DNA from: Burkholderia seminalis DSM 23518 | Lineage (GTDB): Bacteria > Pseudomonadota > Gammaproteobacteria > Burkholderiales > Burkholderiaceae | DNA: 64,000 nucleotides | Direction of reading: 5' to 3' | Assembly (NCBI RefSeq): GCF_902832885.1 | Contig: NZ_CADFDK010000001.1 | Span: 868,001 to 932,000 of the forward strand | Shown here: positions 12,962 to 52,565 of the stretch, piece after piece | Layout of the letters: every line of letters starts with the position of its first letter | Position numbering within the stretch: position 1 is the first letter of the stretch | The notes under the pieces: generated by a model | What the model saw: only the letters and a program-made list of their open reading frames with translations | Database searches by the model: none | Told to the model about the DNA's origin: nothing | Translations under genes and position numbers: made by a program

Positions 12962-12986
12962 AAAAAAAAATGGGCGGAACGCCCAT
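12962..12986 (-). terminator. Terminator-like hairpin in the rimP operon leader (possible attenuator)
   Basis: On the minus strand the stem ATGGGCG/CGCCCAT (12970-12976 with 12980-12986) has a 3-nt loop and is followed at once by nine T residues. It lies inside the leader, about 55 nt after the expected transcription start and about 100 nt before the rimP ATG. Transcripts must read through it to reach rimP. An upstream TGGGCG (13031-13036) could pair with the 3' arm and prevent the hairpin; that antiterminator role is inferred. Confidence 0.75.
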
Positions 12987-13047
12987 CTTTCTTACTGGTG
13001 GTCGCACCTGAGCCGCACATTGAATCCGTACGCCCAGCGACTCCGCG

Positions 13048-13076
13048 ATTATAGCGATTTTTGGCGCAAACGCCAA
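13048..13076 (-). promoter_or_regulatory. Promoter of the rimP-nusA-infB-rbfA-truB operon
   Basis: On the minus strand, -35 TTGGCG (13071-13076), a 17-bp spacer and a perfect -10 TATAAT (13048-13053). Expected start near 13041, giving a leader of about 180 nt that contains the terminator-like hairpin. Confidence 0.8.
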
Positions 13077-22215: not shown

Positions 22216-22506
22216 TCAGACGAGCTTCGACAGCACGCGGATTTCGGAACTTTCGATCCAGTCCGCGGCCGCTTCGCGATAAGCGAGAATGTGCGCGGAG
22301 CGCGCATGCGCAGCCAGCGCCGCCTCGCTCTCCCAACGCTCGACGAATACGAATCGCAAGGGTTCCTTCAGATCCCGGTGCAGGTCGTACTGCAAGGCAC
22401 CGGCTTCGTTACGGGTCGGCTCGACGATCCCTTCGAGCACGGTGCGCAGTTTTTCCTCGGCACCCGGCTTCGCCACGATCAGCGCCACGACTGCAATTTC
22501 CGCCAT
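22216..22506 (-). CDS. Antibiotic biosynthesis monooxygenase (ABM) domain protein
   Basis: A 96-residue dimeric ferredoxin-like barrel protein of the ABM/YgiN type. The start ATG at 22506 follows AAGGAG by 8 nt. Family features include ALIVAKPGAEEKLRTVLEGIVEPTRNEAGALQYDLHRDL and the FVFVERWESEAALAAHARSAH segment. Relatives are small quinol monooxygenases or heme-degrading enzymes, and many have no assigned substrate. It is monocistronic. Confidence 0.88.
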   Translation of the reverse strand: MAEIAVVALIVAKPGAEEKLRTVLEGIVEPTRNEAGALQYDLHRDLKEPLRFVFVERWESEAALAAHARSAHILAYREAAADWIESSEIRVLSKLV

Positions 22507-22595
22507 TCCCGACTCCTTCATCGATAAAAGTCCGAGAATACGCGAATCACGCGTCGCGCATCGGCCACGCCGATGCGACATGGCCCGACGGCTCC

Positions 22596-22629
22596 AAAAA
22601 AATAGCCCGCGCTTCAGAGAAGCGCGGGC
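22596..22629 (-). terminator. Strong intrinsic terminator of a minus-strand transcript with no known gene
   Basis: A perfect 10-bp stem GCCCGCGCTT/AAGCGCGGGC (22605-22614 with 22620-22629) with a CAGAG loop. On the minus strand it is followed by TATTTTTTTGG. bamC already has its own terminator at 22992-23016, so this one must serve a separate minus-strand unit starting between them. Confidence 0.9.
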
Positions 22630-22807
22630 GAAACCGTCGCCCTACGAGGATAGGCGACGGGGCCATCGAGATCCGCACGCGTGCGCGGATCGTCATCGGT
22701 TGCACCGGCGCATGCCGCGCCGACATTCGAAGACGCCGATACCGTTGATCCGGCGCTCGCGGCGCCCGCCCGGCATCTGACGTCATCCTCCCTGTTTCAA
22801 CAATTCC
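22597..22807 (-). ncRNA. Candidate small RNA (possibly encoding a 27-residue peptide)
   Basis: The minus strand of this ~210-nt stretch carries, in order, a sigma-54-like promoter, a good Shine-Dalgarno with a short frame (22693-22776), and stems at 22752-22766, 22670-22691 (GATCCGC/GCGGATC), 22634-22660 (CCGTCGCC/GGCGACGG) and the terminator 22605-22629. Closely packed hairpins ending in a terminator are the usual small-RNA 3' architecture. The 5' end is inferred from the promoter match. No Rfam family was recognised. Confidence 0.5.
22693..22776 (-). CDS. Possible 27-residue peptide within the candidate small RNA
   Basis: The frame starts with ATG at 22776, ten bases after GGGAGG, and ends at a TGA at 22693-22695. 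The peptide is very basic (MPGGRRERR..., about nine Arg) with two Cys. A longer overlapping frame starting at the GGAGGATG would run through the terminator and is not favoured. It may be a translated leader, a small basic protein, or chance. Confidence 0.3.
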   Translation of the reverse strand: MPGGRRERRINGIGVFECRRGMRRCNR

Positions 22808-22816
22808 AACATATAA

Positions 22817-22832
22817 AGCAGGTTGCATGCCA
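22817..22832 (-). promoter_or_regulatory. Sigma-54-type promoter candidate
   Basis: Minus strand TGGCATG-CAAC-CTGCT matches the -24/-12 consensus TGGCACG-N4-TTGCW with GG and GC correctly spaced. Transcription would start near 22807. Two short palindromes upstream, ACACGTGT (22896-22903) and GTTACGTAAC (22926-22935), lie about 92 and 123 bp before the start, a normal distance for activator sites. They are about three helical turns apart. Confidence 0.45.
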
Positions 22833-22991
22833 GCCATTGAAAACCGATCACTTCGTTGATTTAAAAGAACATTTTTTGACGATGGCGACAATGTGACACG
22901 TGTTCTGCCGCCGTAACGCGCGGATGTTACGTAACGTCACGAGGGAGGGACCGAACCGCTCGCACATGCATACGCAAGCGCGAGCGGCTAT

Positions 22992-23016
22992 AAAAAAAGC
23001 CCGCCGAACGGCGGGC
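22992..23016 (-). terminator. Terminator of bamC
   Basis: Stem GCCCGCCG/CGGCGGGC (22999-23006 with 23009-23016), flanked on the minus-strand 3' side by TTTTTTTAT. It lies just after the bamC stop codon. Confidence 0.9.
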
Positions 23017-23044
23017 TTTTCAGTGATGCAGGGACGCGCCGGGA

Positions 23045-24253
23045 TCAGCGAAGCTGATTCACCAGCAGCCCCATGATCTGGCGTGCCGGCGACGACGTGT
23101 CGATCGCGCCCGTATCGTCAACGATTGCAACGCGCGTCTGGTCGGCCGTGAGCGCCTTCACGTTGACGCGGTACTGCTTCGCCTGCTTTTCCTTCTTGCC
23201 GTGGAACAGCTGGCTCCAGAAGCCTTGCTCGGCCGAGGTCAGATCCTTCGGATCGACGTAGCGCACGAAATACAGACCCTTCGTGCGATCGCGATCGTCG
23301 ACCGTGAAGTTCGCGCGATCGAGCGCGAGGCCGACGTGCAGCCACGACCGGTCGTACGGTTCGCCGAGCGTGACTTCCGACGGCACGGCCGCATCGGCCG
23401 CGTCATTGCCCTGTGCCGACGTGCGCGAGACGTTCTGCGCGGCGATCGCTGCCGCGGCCTTCGATGATGCGTCGGCGTCGGCCTTCTTCTCGATCGGTAC
23501 CGTGTTGTCCTTGATGTTCGCGATCGGCGGCTCGCCGTTCTTCGCACGCTGCGCATTCTGCGCGAGCACGGCCATCAGCCGCTTCAGGTATTCGGTCTCG
23601 AGCGCCGGATCGTTCGGCTTCGGTTCCCACTTGCTCGAATCGTTGTTCGCACCGGTGATCGCCTCACGCATGCCCTTCTGGCTGATGAACACGTAGGTGC
23701 CGCCGTTCGGCGCCGAGTCGAGACGCGTGCGGTACTTGTTGCGCTCGGCCGTCACGTACGAGTTGCCCATCGCCTTCGAGATCACGCTGCGGATCAGCCC
23801 GTCGTTGATCTGCGGATGGGTTTCGTTCCAGTCGGTTTCCATCACGCCCTTGTCGCGCTGGTCGACCACGAGCAGGAAGCCCTGCTCCTGCCAGAACCGG
23901 CGGACCTGCGGCCAGATGTCGGCCGGCTGCTTGCCGTCGATCACGAGCCAGCTCTCGGTGCCGTCGCGCTGGATATGCATGCCGGCCACGGCCGGCGCGA
24001 CGGTGTCCAGCGCAGGCGCAGCCTGCTGGACCTGTTGAAGCGCAGACAGGGAAGTCGCGCCGCCCTGGGGCGGCAGCGAACGCTGATCGGCCGTCTCGTC
24101 GAGCATGTTGGGCGGCACTGCGAGCGACGCTTCCTTCGATTTCGAATCGCTCTTGTAGTCCACTTTCGTGGGCGACGACGTACCGCAACCGGCAACGAGC
24201 GCGCCGGTGGCAAGCACTGCAGCGAACCGCATGGTAAGACGAAGATCAGTCAT
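23045..24253 (-). CDS. bamC: Outer-membrane assembly lipoprotein BamC (NlpB)
   Basis: A 402-residue lipoprotein component of the BAM complex that inserts beta-barrel proteins. The ATG at 24253 gives a signal peptide with lipobox LVAGC, Cys23. The two helix-grip domains are recognisable from DGTESWLVIDGKQPADIWPQVRRFWQEQGF and PYDRSWLHVGLALDRANFTVDDRDRTKGLYFVRY. In E. coli bamC follows dapA; here its upstream neighbour is tRNA-Pro, so it is probably transcribed alone. An upstream extension to 24301 is rejected as it would bury the signal peptide. Confidence 0.94.
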   Translation of the reverse strand: MTDLRLTMRFAAVLATGALVAGCGTSSPTKVDYKSDSKSKEASLAVPPNMLDETADQRSLPPQGGATSLSALQQVQQAAPALDTVAPAVAGMHIQRDGTESWLVIDGKQPADIWPQVRRFWQEQGFLLVVDQRDKGVMETDWNETHPQINDGLIRSVISKAMGNSYVTAERNKYRTRLDSAPNGGTYVFISQKGMREAITGANNDSSKWEPKPNDPALETEYLKRLMAVLAQNAQRAKNGEPPIANIKDNTVPIEKKADADASSKAAAAIAAQNVSRTSAQGNDAADAAVPSEVTLGEPYDRSWLHVGLALDRANFTVDDRDRTKGLYFVRYVDPKDLTSAEQGFWSQLFHGKKEKQAKQYRVNVKALTADQTRVAIVDDTGAIDTSSPARQIMGLLVNQLR

Positions 24254-24351
24254 GTTCGGGGAATCCTCTTCCGCTAAATCACGGCGCTTTCCGTGGATCA
24301 ACCTTGCATTTTACCGGGGCCGCGCCGCGATGTGCAAAAAAGCGACCGGCA

Positions 24352-50630: not shown

Positions 50631-52565
50631 CTACTTCCGCGCGCCGCGCAGCTCGGTCACCGCCGCCTGCAGCGACTCGGGCGTCGCGACCGACGCCGGG
50701 ACCGGCTCGCCGACTGCCAGCGTGAGCCGGCTCATCACGCCGCGCCTGATGGGGCGCGGCATCCGCGCATCGGAATGCCGCGAGAAATAGCTGCCCCACA
50801 GTCCGCGCAGCGCCATCGGGATGACCGGTGCCGGGGTGCGGCTCAGGATCTCGGTGATGCCGTGGTGGAACGTGTTGATGTCGCCCGTCTTGGTCAGCTT
50901 GCCCTCGGGGAAGATGCACACGAGTTCGCCGTCCTTCAGCGCGGCCTCGCACAGGTCGTACGCGCGGGCGAGCATCGCCGGATCCTCGTGGCGCGGCGCG
51001 ATCGGGATCGCCTTCGCATGCCGGAACACCCAGCTCGCGAAGCGCGTCTTGAAGATCCGGTGATCCATCACGAAACGGATCGGGCGCGGGCTCGCGGCCG
51101 CCAGCACGAGCGCATCGACGTAGCTGACGTGGTTGCACACGAGCACGGCCGCGCCTTCCGCCGGAATCCGCTCCGCGTGCACAAGGCGGATCCGGTAGAA
51201 GGTGTGCACGAGCACCCACGCGACGAAACGCAGCAGGAACTCGGGCACGAGCAGGTAGATGTACGTCGCGACGATCACGTTCAGCAGCGCGGTGGCGAGG
51301 AACAGCCCCGGGATGTCGACGCCGGCCTTGGTCAGCCCCATCGCCATCACGGCCGACAGGATCATGAACAGCGCGTTCAGGATGTTGTTCGCGGCGATGA
51401 TCCGTGCGCGGTGCGTCGGCGCGCTGCGGCTCTGGATCAGCGCGTACAGCGGCACGCTGTAGAAGCCGCCGAACATCGCGAGCAGGAACAGGTCGGCGAG
51501 GATGCGCCAGTGGCGCGCGCCGGCCAGGAATTCGCCGACCGACAGCAGATGGCCCGGCGACGGCAGCGCGCGGCTCGCGAAATACAGCTCGATCGCAAAC
51601 ACGCTGATGCCGATCGAGCCGAGCGGCACGAGGCCGATCTCGACGCGCCGCTGCGACAGCCGCTCGCACAGCAGCGAGCCGAGGCCGATGCCGACCGAGA
51701 ACGTCGCGAGCAGGATCGTGACGACGTCGGGGCTCGCGGACAGCACGTCCTTCGCGAAATTGAAGAACGACGTGAGGAAGGTCGCGCCGACGAACCACAG
51801 CCACGAGATGCCGAGCAGGCTGAGGAACACGGTGCGATTCTGGCGCGCGAGCCCGAGGTTGCGCCACGTTTCGCTGACCGGATTCCAGTTGATCACGAGA
51901 TCGGGCTGCGGCGCCGGCGTCGACGGCACGCGCTGCGCGACGAGGCGCCCCGCGAGCGCGATCACGACGACGCTCACCGCGAGCACGCGTTCGCCGGCGC
52001 CTTCGATGCCGGCGGCCGCGCCGCCGATGATCGTGCCGATCAGGATCGCGATGAACGTGCCCATTTCGACGAGGCCGTTGCCGCCGACCAGCTCATGCTC
52101 GCCGAGATGCTGCGGCAAGTACGAATACTTGACGGGCCCGAACAGCGTCGAGTGCATCCCCATCATGAACGTGCACAGATACAGCAGCGTCGCGCTGTGC
52201 GTGACGAAGCCGGCGGCACCGACGAGCATCAGCACGATCTCGAAGGTCTTCACGAAGCGCGTGAGGGTCGCCTTGTCGTACTTGTCGGCAATCTGGCCGG
52301 ACGTCGCCGAGAACAGCACGAACGGCAGGATGAAGATCGCGGAAATCAGGAACGCGGCCGTCTTGGCGTCGACGCCGGCGAACCGCGCGGTGTGATAGGT
52401 GACGAGCGACGTGAAGCCGATCTTGAAGACGTTGTCGTTCAGCGCACCGAGGAACTGGGTCGTGAAGAACGGGGCGAAACGGCGCTCGCGCAGCAGGTCG
52501 AACTGCGACGCGTGGGCACGCCGTTCGTCGCGCCGCTCCGAAGTGGCTTGCGTGTGATCGCTCAT
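50631..52565 (-). CDS. MFS transporter fused to a PlsC-type acyltransferase
   Basis: A 644-residue two-domain protein. Residues ~1-420 are an LplT-like major-facilitator lysophospholipid transporter with about 12 membrane segments (FLGALNDNVFKIGFTSL at the start). Residues ~440-644 are a 1-acylglycerol-3-phosphate acyltransferase domain with motif I NHVSYVDAL (H-x4-D, near 478) and motif III FPEGKLTKTGDI (near 551). In E. coli LplT works with Aas, which joins PlsC to an AMP ligase; here the ligase is missing. It probably recycles lysophospholipids. The ATG at 52565 is used. Confidence 0.92.
   Translation of the reverse strand: MSDHTQATSERRDERRAHASQFDLLRERRFAPFFTTQFLGALNDNVFKIGFTSLVTYHTARFAGVDAKTAAFLISAIFILPFVLFSATSGQIADKYDKATLTRFVKTFEIVLMLVGAAGFVTHSATLLYLCTFMMGMHSTLFGPVKYSYLPQHLGEHELVGGNGLVEMGTFIAILIGTIIGGAAAGIEGAGERVLAVSVVVIALAGRLVAQRVPSTPAPQPDLVINWNPVSETWRNLGLARQNRTVFLSLLGISWLWFVGATFLTSFFNFAKDVLSASPDVVTILLATFSVGIGLGSLLCERLSQRRVEIGLVPLGSIGISVFAIELYFASRALPSPGHLLSVGEFLAGARHWRILADLFLLAMFGGFYSVPLYALIQSRSAPTHRARIIAANNILNALFMILSAVMAMGLTKAGVDIPGLFLATALLNVIVATYIYLLVPEFLLRFVAWVLVHTFYRIRLVHAERIPAEGAAVLVCNHVSYVDALVLAAASPRPIRFVMDHRIFKTRFASWVFRHAKAIPIAPRHEDPAMLARAYDLCEAALKDGELVCIFPEGKLTKTGDINTFHHGITEILSRTPAPVIPMALRGLWGSYFSRHSDARMPRPIRRGVMSRLTLAVGEPVPASVATPESLQAAVTELRGARK

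Follow-up and report, generated by a model that had tools for sequence, protein, structure and literature searches.

What is transcribed from the interval between bamC and the downstream gene for an antibiotic biosynthesis monooxygenase (ABM) domain protein in Burkholderia seminalis DSM 23518? The whole 64-kb stretch of DNA that was analysed is referred to here as the window. Read along the minus strand, the order is bamC, its terminator, a putative enhancer, an AATCAA box, a -24/-12 element, an RNA of about 210 nt, a further terminator and the ABM gene (Table 1). The original prediction was of a separate small RNA (sRNA) gene on the minus strand, served by a sigma-54 promoter and by sites for an activator, and it named the retention of its hairpins and -24/-12 motif in related genomes as a check. 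Both are retained, as far as sequence goes, and we regard the unit as very probably an independent sRNA gene under sigma-54 control.

Table 1. Coordinates of features at the bamC–ABM locus (positions in the window).
Feature	Position	Strand	Remarks
bamC (NlpB/DapX lipoprotein)	23045..24301	-	Pfam PF06804; upstream neighbour; true start may be internal
bamC terminator	22992..23020 (about)	-	GC-rich hairpin and T run; found by reading; absent from terminator-scan list
Putative enhancer (UAS)	22912..22936	-	CGTTACGTAAC at 22936-22926 and second half-site CGTTACG at 22918-22912; GTTACGTAAC in 65/65 genus genomes
IHF-like box	22849..22861	-	AATCAA at 22861-22856; partial match to WATCAANNNNTTR; WATCAW in 58/65 genus genomes
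Predicted sigma-54 promoter (-24/-12)	22817..22832	-	TGGCATG-CAAC-CTGCT; sole TGGCAYGN4YTGCW match in the window
Predicted small RNA, about 210 nt	22597..22806	-	Fold z -3.57; DNA match in 65/65 genus genomes
5' purine-rich segment	22786..22794	-	CAGGGAGGA; might base-pair with the RNA's own UCCUC loop
Covarying hairpin	22670..22691	-	GATCCGCGC...GCGCGGATC; both-side changes in 5/9 pairs (24 sequences)
Near-invariant hairpin	22634..22660	-	CCGUCGCCU-AUCCUCGUA-GGGCGACGG; loop with anti-Shine-Dalgarno UCCUC
Intrinsic terminator	22597..22629 (hairpin 22629-22605)	-	11 pairs and T run/U tail; terminator scan; compensatory stem changes
ABM domain protein	22216..22527	-	Pfam PF03992; putative start; downstream neighbour

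Organization of the locus

The predicted RNA starts 12 nt past the GC of the -12 element and its end is set by the T run. The strong minus-strand terminator of the original prediction was recovered by the terminator scan, and the one attributed to bamC is also recognizable by reading, but its hairpin is not listed by the scan. The scan reports eight terminator-like sites in the window compared with 5.8 +/- 2.6 in shuffled sequences, so that the count is not raised and it is the strength and conservation of the site at 22629-22605 that matter. Element DNA is matched in all 65 genus genomes, and bamC and the ABM gene are both detected at 58 of the 65 loci, some of which end near a contig end. 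Two genomes (L017 and L024) have approximately 1.4 kb of extra DNA between the end of bamC and the enhancer, with the sRNA unit intact. Elsewhere in the window, Rfam matches to the Burkholderia sRNAs Bp1_162 and Bcj11 are located at 12963-13060 (plus strand) and 51741-51862 (minus strand).

The predicted sigma-54 promoter and its putative enhancer

The -24/-12 element has the GG-N10-GC arrangement with conserved spacing that characterizes sigma-54-dependent promoters. The pattern TGGCAYGN4YTGCW is expected only 0.06 times in the 64-kb window, and at least one match was seen in 6 of 100 shuffled versions. A match at the usual distance is present in 64 of the 65 genus genomes using a looser pattern and in 62 by the strict pattern. 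When the upstream windows are shuffled base by base, a match arises in 55 of 13000 cases. The earlier reading of this sequence as a sigma-54 promoter is upheld as far as sequence goes. Among the 65 orthologues the N4 spacer and a large part of the neighbouring sequence vary, and the conserved layout of the promoter is beyond chance. In two genomes (G063 and G064) the main BLAST match extends from the initial base of the sigma-54 motif to beyond the terminator.

Conserved half-sites lie 80-104 bp upstream of the -24 element, within the range (about 80-150 bp) of enhancers bound by AAA+ activators, and are predicted to serve as such. Two palindromes had been suggested as activator sites, of which that at 22936-22926 is conserved (as GTTACGTAAC) and the other (ACACGTGT) is not; the second half-site and the IHF-like AATCAA are additions to that account. 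The box was scored against the IHF consensus WATCAANNNNTTR, which is fully matched in only 11 of the 65 genus genomes. The 8-Mb genome contains GTTACGTAAC twice, compared with seven occurrences of the same pattern read backwards, and the composite enhancer pattern likewise twice, compared with none. Among eight genomes of the family, the pattern CGTTACN2-9GTRACGTWAC is matched in three, in each case solely at the sRNA locus.

The second place at which the composite enhancer is found, followed by a sigma-54 motif 141 bp on (L098:1500-1660 / L415 and L322 / L416), precedes genes for a GMP/PMI, a WcaJ-type transferase, a polysaccharide export protein, a Wzc-type kinase and a flippase. This is a cepacian-like exopolysaccharide cluster, corresponding presumably to bce-I. 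The layout is kept in G064 and was not found by the composite pattern in six other genus genomes; overall, the Burkholderia composite pattern is matched in five of eight genus genomes, at the sRNA in four and at the exopolysaccharide locus in two, with B. seminalis having both. The bce-I cluster is reported to be sigma-54 dependent (PMC5295037, PMC5491218) and, in B. cenocepacia H111, NtrC dependent too (PMC5491218). Together with the second site, these dependencies support the view that this type of enhancer is functional, and they leave room for NtrC as its activator.

Structure of the predicted RNA

The RNA (22806-22596) folds at -108.4 kcal/mol, and none of 200 shuffled sequences is as stable. 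Its 3' module is nearly invariant and its 5' half is variable. Of the three hairpins that had been described ahead of the terminator, two are conserved and one of these covaries, but the 5'-most is much less conserved. Both-side changes are seen in 6 of 29 pairs, five of them in the hairpin at 22691-22670 (24 of the 56 distinct genus sequences), and in a larger set of 121 sequences the outer pairs of this hairpin show AU/GC and UA/CG swaps and the terminator stem has swaps as well. For the 121 distinct sequences, which come from several genera, 98.9% of cells are paired, compared with a mean of 93.9% and a maximum of 94.4% in 200 shuffles, a count that leans towards structure because structure and alignment were derived from the same sequences. 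The hairpin with the AUCCUCGUA loop hardly varies and is therefore uninformative for covariation. The purine-rich segment near the 5' end is present in much of the genus and was not seen in five Paraburkholderia loci (L129, L130 and L132-L134). One locus (L058) naturally lacks the 5' half of the RNA and retains the promoter and the 3' module; its sigma-54 motif is nearer to the core because of this loss.

Lying on the same strand, 370 bp behind the bamC terminator, the RNA could be pictured as part of the bamC transcript, either a processed 3' fragment or a long 3' UTR. The terminator of bamC itself, the conservation of the enhancer and promoter, and the extra DNA that separates bamC from the element in L017 and L024 make this very improbable. 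We give equally little credence to a 5' UTR leader of the ABM gene, which is also on the same strand and has possible starts about 75-100 bp behind the terminator, as the near-invariant terminator with its U run ends the unit. That a short protein is encoded is scarcely credible: the B. seminalis sequence has a 27-aa frame from 22776 and an AGGGAGG ahead of ATGs, but the start positions differ between genomes and five of 65 have no ATG or GTG frame of 20 codons. No conserved small ORF was found, the commonest first start offset being shared by 13 of the 65 genus genomes. An independent sRNA gene is the reading that we adopt in what follows.

Distribution beyond Burkholderia

A covariance model of the 3' module finds matches with E values up to 0.001 in at least 130 of 299 genomes of the family, representing at least 11 of 25 genera; matches of at least 70 bits come from four genera among the matches listed, and weaker ones may include chance. 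A degenerate core-hairpin pattern yields at least 119 stretches, with 80 named loci among the matches listed, and the core hairpin is found in Paraburkholderia, Caballeronia, Trinickia and Pararobbsia. After leaving out four of the 80 loci, in which the upstream sequence is too short, and keeping apart nine whose record titles, the source of the genus names, are unclear, half-sites and sigma-54 motif are present together in 17 of 18 usable Burkholderia loci, 24 of 24 in Paraburkholderia, three of three in Trinickia, the single Pararobbsia locus (with a poorer motif), and eight of the nine of unclear genus. Some species are represented both among the named loci and in the genus set, which are therefore not independent.

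Caballeronia departs from this pattern, with half-sites and sigma-54 motif together in 5 of 21 usable loci and the motif by itself in 8 of 21. The remaining 13 have the RNA core but show no sigma-54 match, so the RNA does not require this promoter at every locus. Caballeronia loci such as L156, L160, L184 and L191 have in common a block around GTGCGSAAAGCTTATA upstream of the RNA, whether or not the sigma-54 motif is present; by eye, this is perhaps a second promoter, a replacing one, or one of another type. The Caballeronia loci that have the RNA and lack the sigma-54 promoter constitute a natural case of promoter replacement.

Candidate activators

The suggestion that the gene is nitrogen regulated was not sustained, since nothing specific points to it. 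The half-sites GTTAC/GTAAC, when compared by reading with the NtrC site consensus, are not of the NtrC type. They are equal to the CbrB subsites of Pseudomonas putida, where three subsites of the forms TGTTAC and GTAACA, 20-25 bp apart, are followed by IHF and by GG-N10-GC at crcZ and crcY (PMC6296734). The recognition helix of CbrB reads LGISRKCLWE, and among the 25 sigma-54 activators of the B. seminalis genome SRKxLWE is present in one, L090. The CbrB reference is the sigma-54 activator just upstream of CrcZ in the sole genome of 369 that exceeds the CrcZ cut-off, which we take to be CbrB on the understanding that cbrB precedes crcZ. In overall alignment score of the helix-turn-helix to CbrB, L068 equals L090 (59 each), and its helix reads GRQSLYA. 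Across eight genomes (with incomplete sets for G228, G154, G112 and G306), SRKxLWE is found in 8 of 93 frames, of which six are L090 orthologues and two are not.

Published gtrR primers (PMC8174753) match L090 with 0 and 1 mismatches, and the stretch that they enclose amounts to 463 codons, equal to the published length; we therefore identify L090 as GtrR. GtrR is BCAL1536 in B. cenocepacia J2315 and is a partner of RpfR, the BDSF and c-di-GMP receptor (PMC12838280, PMC9684580). A gene for Hfq lies within 1 kb of gtrR, and hfq2 of J2315 is BCAL1538 (PMC11054960). On the strength of its recognition helix GtrR is the leading, although still tentative, candidate for the activator of the sRNA promoter. 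GtrR works with RpfR, and the sRNA may therefore be an output of the BDSF/c-di-GMP circuit.

GTTAC/GTAAC is absent in two genomes from the published promoter fragment of bclACB, which we presume to be a GtrR target, and this counts against GtrR. The Caballeronia genome G298, which is without the promoter, still has a GtrR orthologue; this also counts against GtrR, and the missing promoter there cannot be put down to a missing activator. No pairs of CGTTAC/GTAACG within 30 bp were found near activator genes (25 of B. seminalis and eight of G143, in loci of about 3 kb). Direct repeats of CGTAACG lie upstream of the Hfq gene near gtrR (L383:10703-10720), where the pattern used shows no sigma-54 motif. 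Upstream of a GtrR orthologue there are three GTAACG repeats 12 bp apart (L384:2771-2800) before a secretin-like gene, in what looks by eye like a Tad pilus cluster.

NrsZ of P. aeruginosa is activated by NtrB/NtrC under nitrogen starvation, and a similar activation of the present promoter, giving an NrsZ-like sRNA, is unlikely. NtrC (L071) is conserved in the compared genomes, and the effect of both sigma-54 and NtrC on bce-I expression in B. cenocepacia H111 (PMC5491218) argues for it in that the cepacian-like cluster here has the same enhancer layout; but NtrC may influence bce-I indirectly, GTTAC/GTAAC are the sites that do not vary, and no NtrC-type palindrome was recognized upstream by reading. 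An activator that is neither GtrR nor NtrC is as plausible as GtrR itself. For several (L079, L086, L080/L089, L078 and L091), as for GtrR, two or more of G143, G200 and G298 contain a reciprocal best hit; the link to GtrR is through one helix motif, which also appears in 2 of 93 frames, neither of these a GtrR orthologue, and L068 ties with GtrR in its score. Against this class stands the CbrB-like SRKxLWE helix, confined to GtrR among the 25 activators of this genome.

Proposed mode of action

The best explanation of the locus as a whole, and one that we hold to be probable, is a trans-acting sRNA of about 210 nt that is transcribed from an enhancer-dependent sigma-54 promoter and acts through its 3' module. 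In this scheme an activator with CbrB-type DNA recognition would occupy the GTTAC/GTAAC half-sites, which lie about 80-104 bp ahead of the -24 element, possibly with bending of the DNA by IHF, and the sigma-54 polymerase would then fire. The RNA would act mainly via the near-invariant loop AUCCUCGUA and the terminator with its U tail, probably with the assistance of Hfq. The UCCUC of the loop would pair with Shine-Dalgarno regions so that translation is blocked, and the 5' half may either cover this loop or be cleaved away. Pairing at ribosome sites is in our estimation somewhat favoured, and it is the likeness to double-hairpin sRNAs and the processing of Bordetella S17, both described below, that suggest such pairing together with removal or masking of the 5' part.

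A seed pattern, TACGAGGAN2-9ATG, occurs at 16 sites in the B. seminalis genome compared with 63 for the control Shine-Dalgarno pattern ATCGAGGAN2-9ATG (three and one, respectively, when read backwards), and because the seed sites are fewer than those of the control, no target is supported. The sequence TACGAGGA, complementary to the sRNA loop, is present at the ribosome sites of L326, L366, L364 and L359, which by eye are ShlB/FhaC-like, GDSL-esterase-like, RidA-like and DoxX-like genes; these sites, which are not in excess of the control pattern, recur in orthologues, and recurrence of the spacer is likewise visible by eye among the control matches listed.

Relationship to known small RNAs

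At the Rfam cut-offs there are four matches in the window, none of them at this locus. When the thresholds are relaxed, the 3' module can be aligned over its full length with anti-hemB (RF02837; 33.7 bits, E 3.3e-6, below the gathering score of 49.5) and with the Betaproteobacteria toxic sRNA (RF02278; 25.0 bits, below the gathering score of 50). The RNA has in common with both the layout of double-hairpin anti-Shine-Dalgarno sRNAs, namely two hairpins, UCCUC in the first loop and a terminator with a U tail, but differs from them in having some 150 nt of extra 5' sequence and a sigma-54 promoter. Bordetella S17 is reported to be similar to the toxic sRNAs, to be transcribed with sigma-A, and to have a short form that RNase E releases from a precursor of 190 nt (PMC11722255); this form, S17S, likewise has stem-loops and C/U-rich single strands in a comparison by description only. 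Homology to S17 was rejected, as only the general plan is common to the two and S17 was compared by description rather than sequence.

Neither of two previously described sRNAs corresponds to this gene. The 208-nt ncS11/RIT55 of B. cenocepacia is similar in length, on the minus strand and conserved, but its neighbours (BCAL2293 and BCAL2294, 3 kb from ncS63/hemP) differ, and no hemP was recognized by eye at the corresponding place near the locus, assuming the same gene order between strains. NcS25 is without a sigma-54 motif and also has different neighbours. Among the listed titles and abstract openings of the open Burkholderia literature we found no sigma-54 sRNA at this locus; supplementary B. 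cenocepacia lists may include it. The RNA reaches the cut-off of no Rfam family and may be a candidate for a new sRNA family of the Burkholderiaceae.

CrcZ carries A-rich motifs, which the locus RNA, GC-rich by reading, lacks. CrcZ (RF01675) has no match in the B. seminalis genome or among the window matches including those at relaxed thresholds, and the locus, unlike crcZ, is not beside cbrB, its neighbours being bamC and the ABM gene. The Pseudomonas crcZ and crcY genes nonetheless resemble it in being sRNA genes with GTTAC/GTAAC half-sites, an IHF box and GG-N10-GC in the same order, but the spacing differs, since two half-sites at the present locus are directly adjacent and the third follows some 18 bp further, as against subsites 20-25 bp apart in CbrB targets (PMC6296734). 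CbrAB is described as exclusive to pseudomonads.

None of Qrr, NrsZ and GlmY/GlmZ is among the Rfam matches listed for the window, at the cut-offs or at relaxed thresholds. NrsZ of P. aeruginosa and GlmY/GlmZ of enterobacteria are sigma-54-controlled sRNAs with different activator sites, and the Qrr sRNAs of Vibrio are sigma-54 controlled via the quorum-sensing activator LuxO. Only if GtrR is the activator would the present gene be Qrr-like, as a sigma-54 sRNA under a quorum-sensing activator, with both activator and genus being different. Speculatively, and on balance we doubt it, the RNA could be a new Burkholderiaceae family that forms the sigma-54 output of the BDSF/c-di-GMP circuit, with GtrR acting by CbrB-type recognition and also switching the cepacian-like cluster in some species, and with Hfq2 as a possible chaperone. 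If so, it would be a Burkholderia counterpart of both Vibrio Qrr and Pseudomonas CrcZ. A sigma-54 sRNA gene that is found in several genera with its enhancer intact is a Burkholderiaceae candidate for the CrcZ/Qrr role, and with it the DNA recognition of GtrR and quorum and c-di-GMP signalling through RNA become testable.
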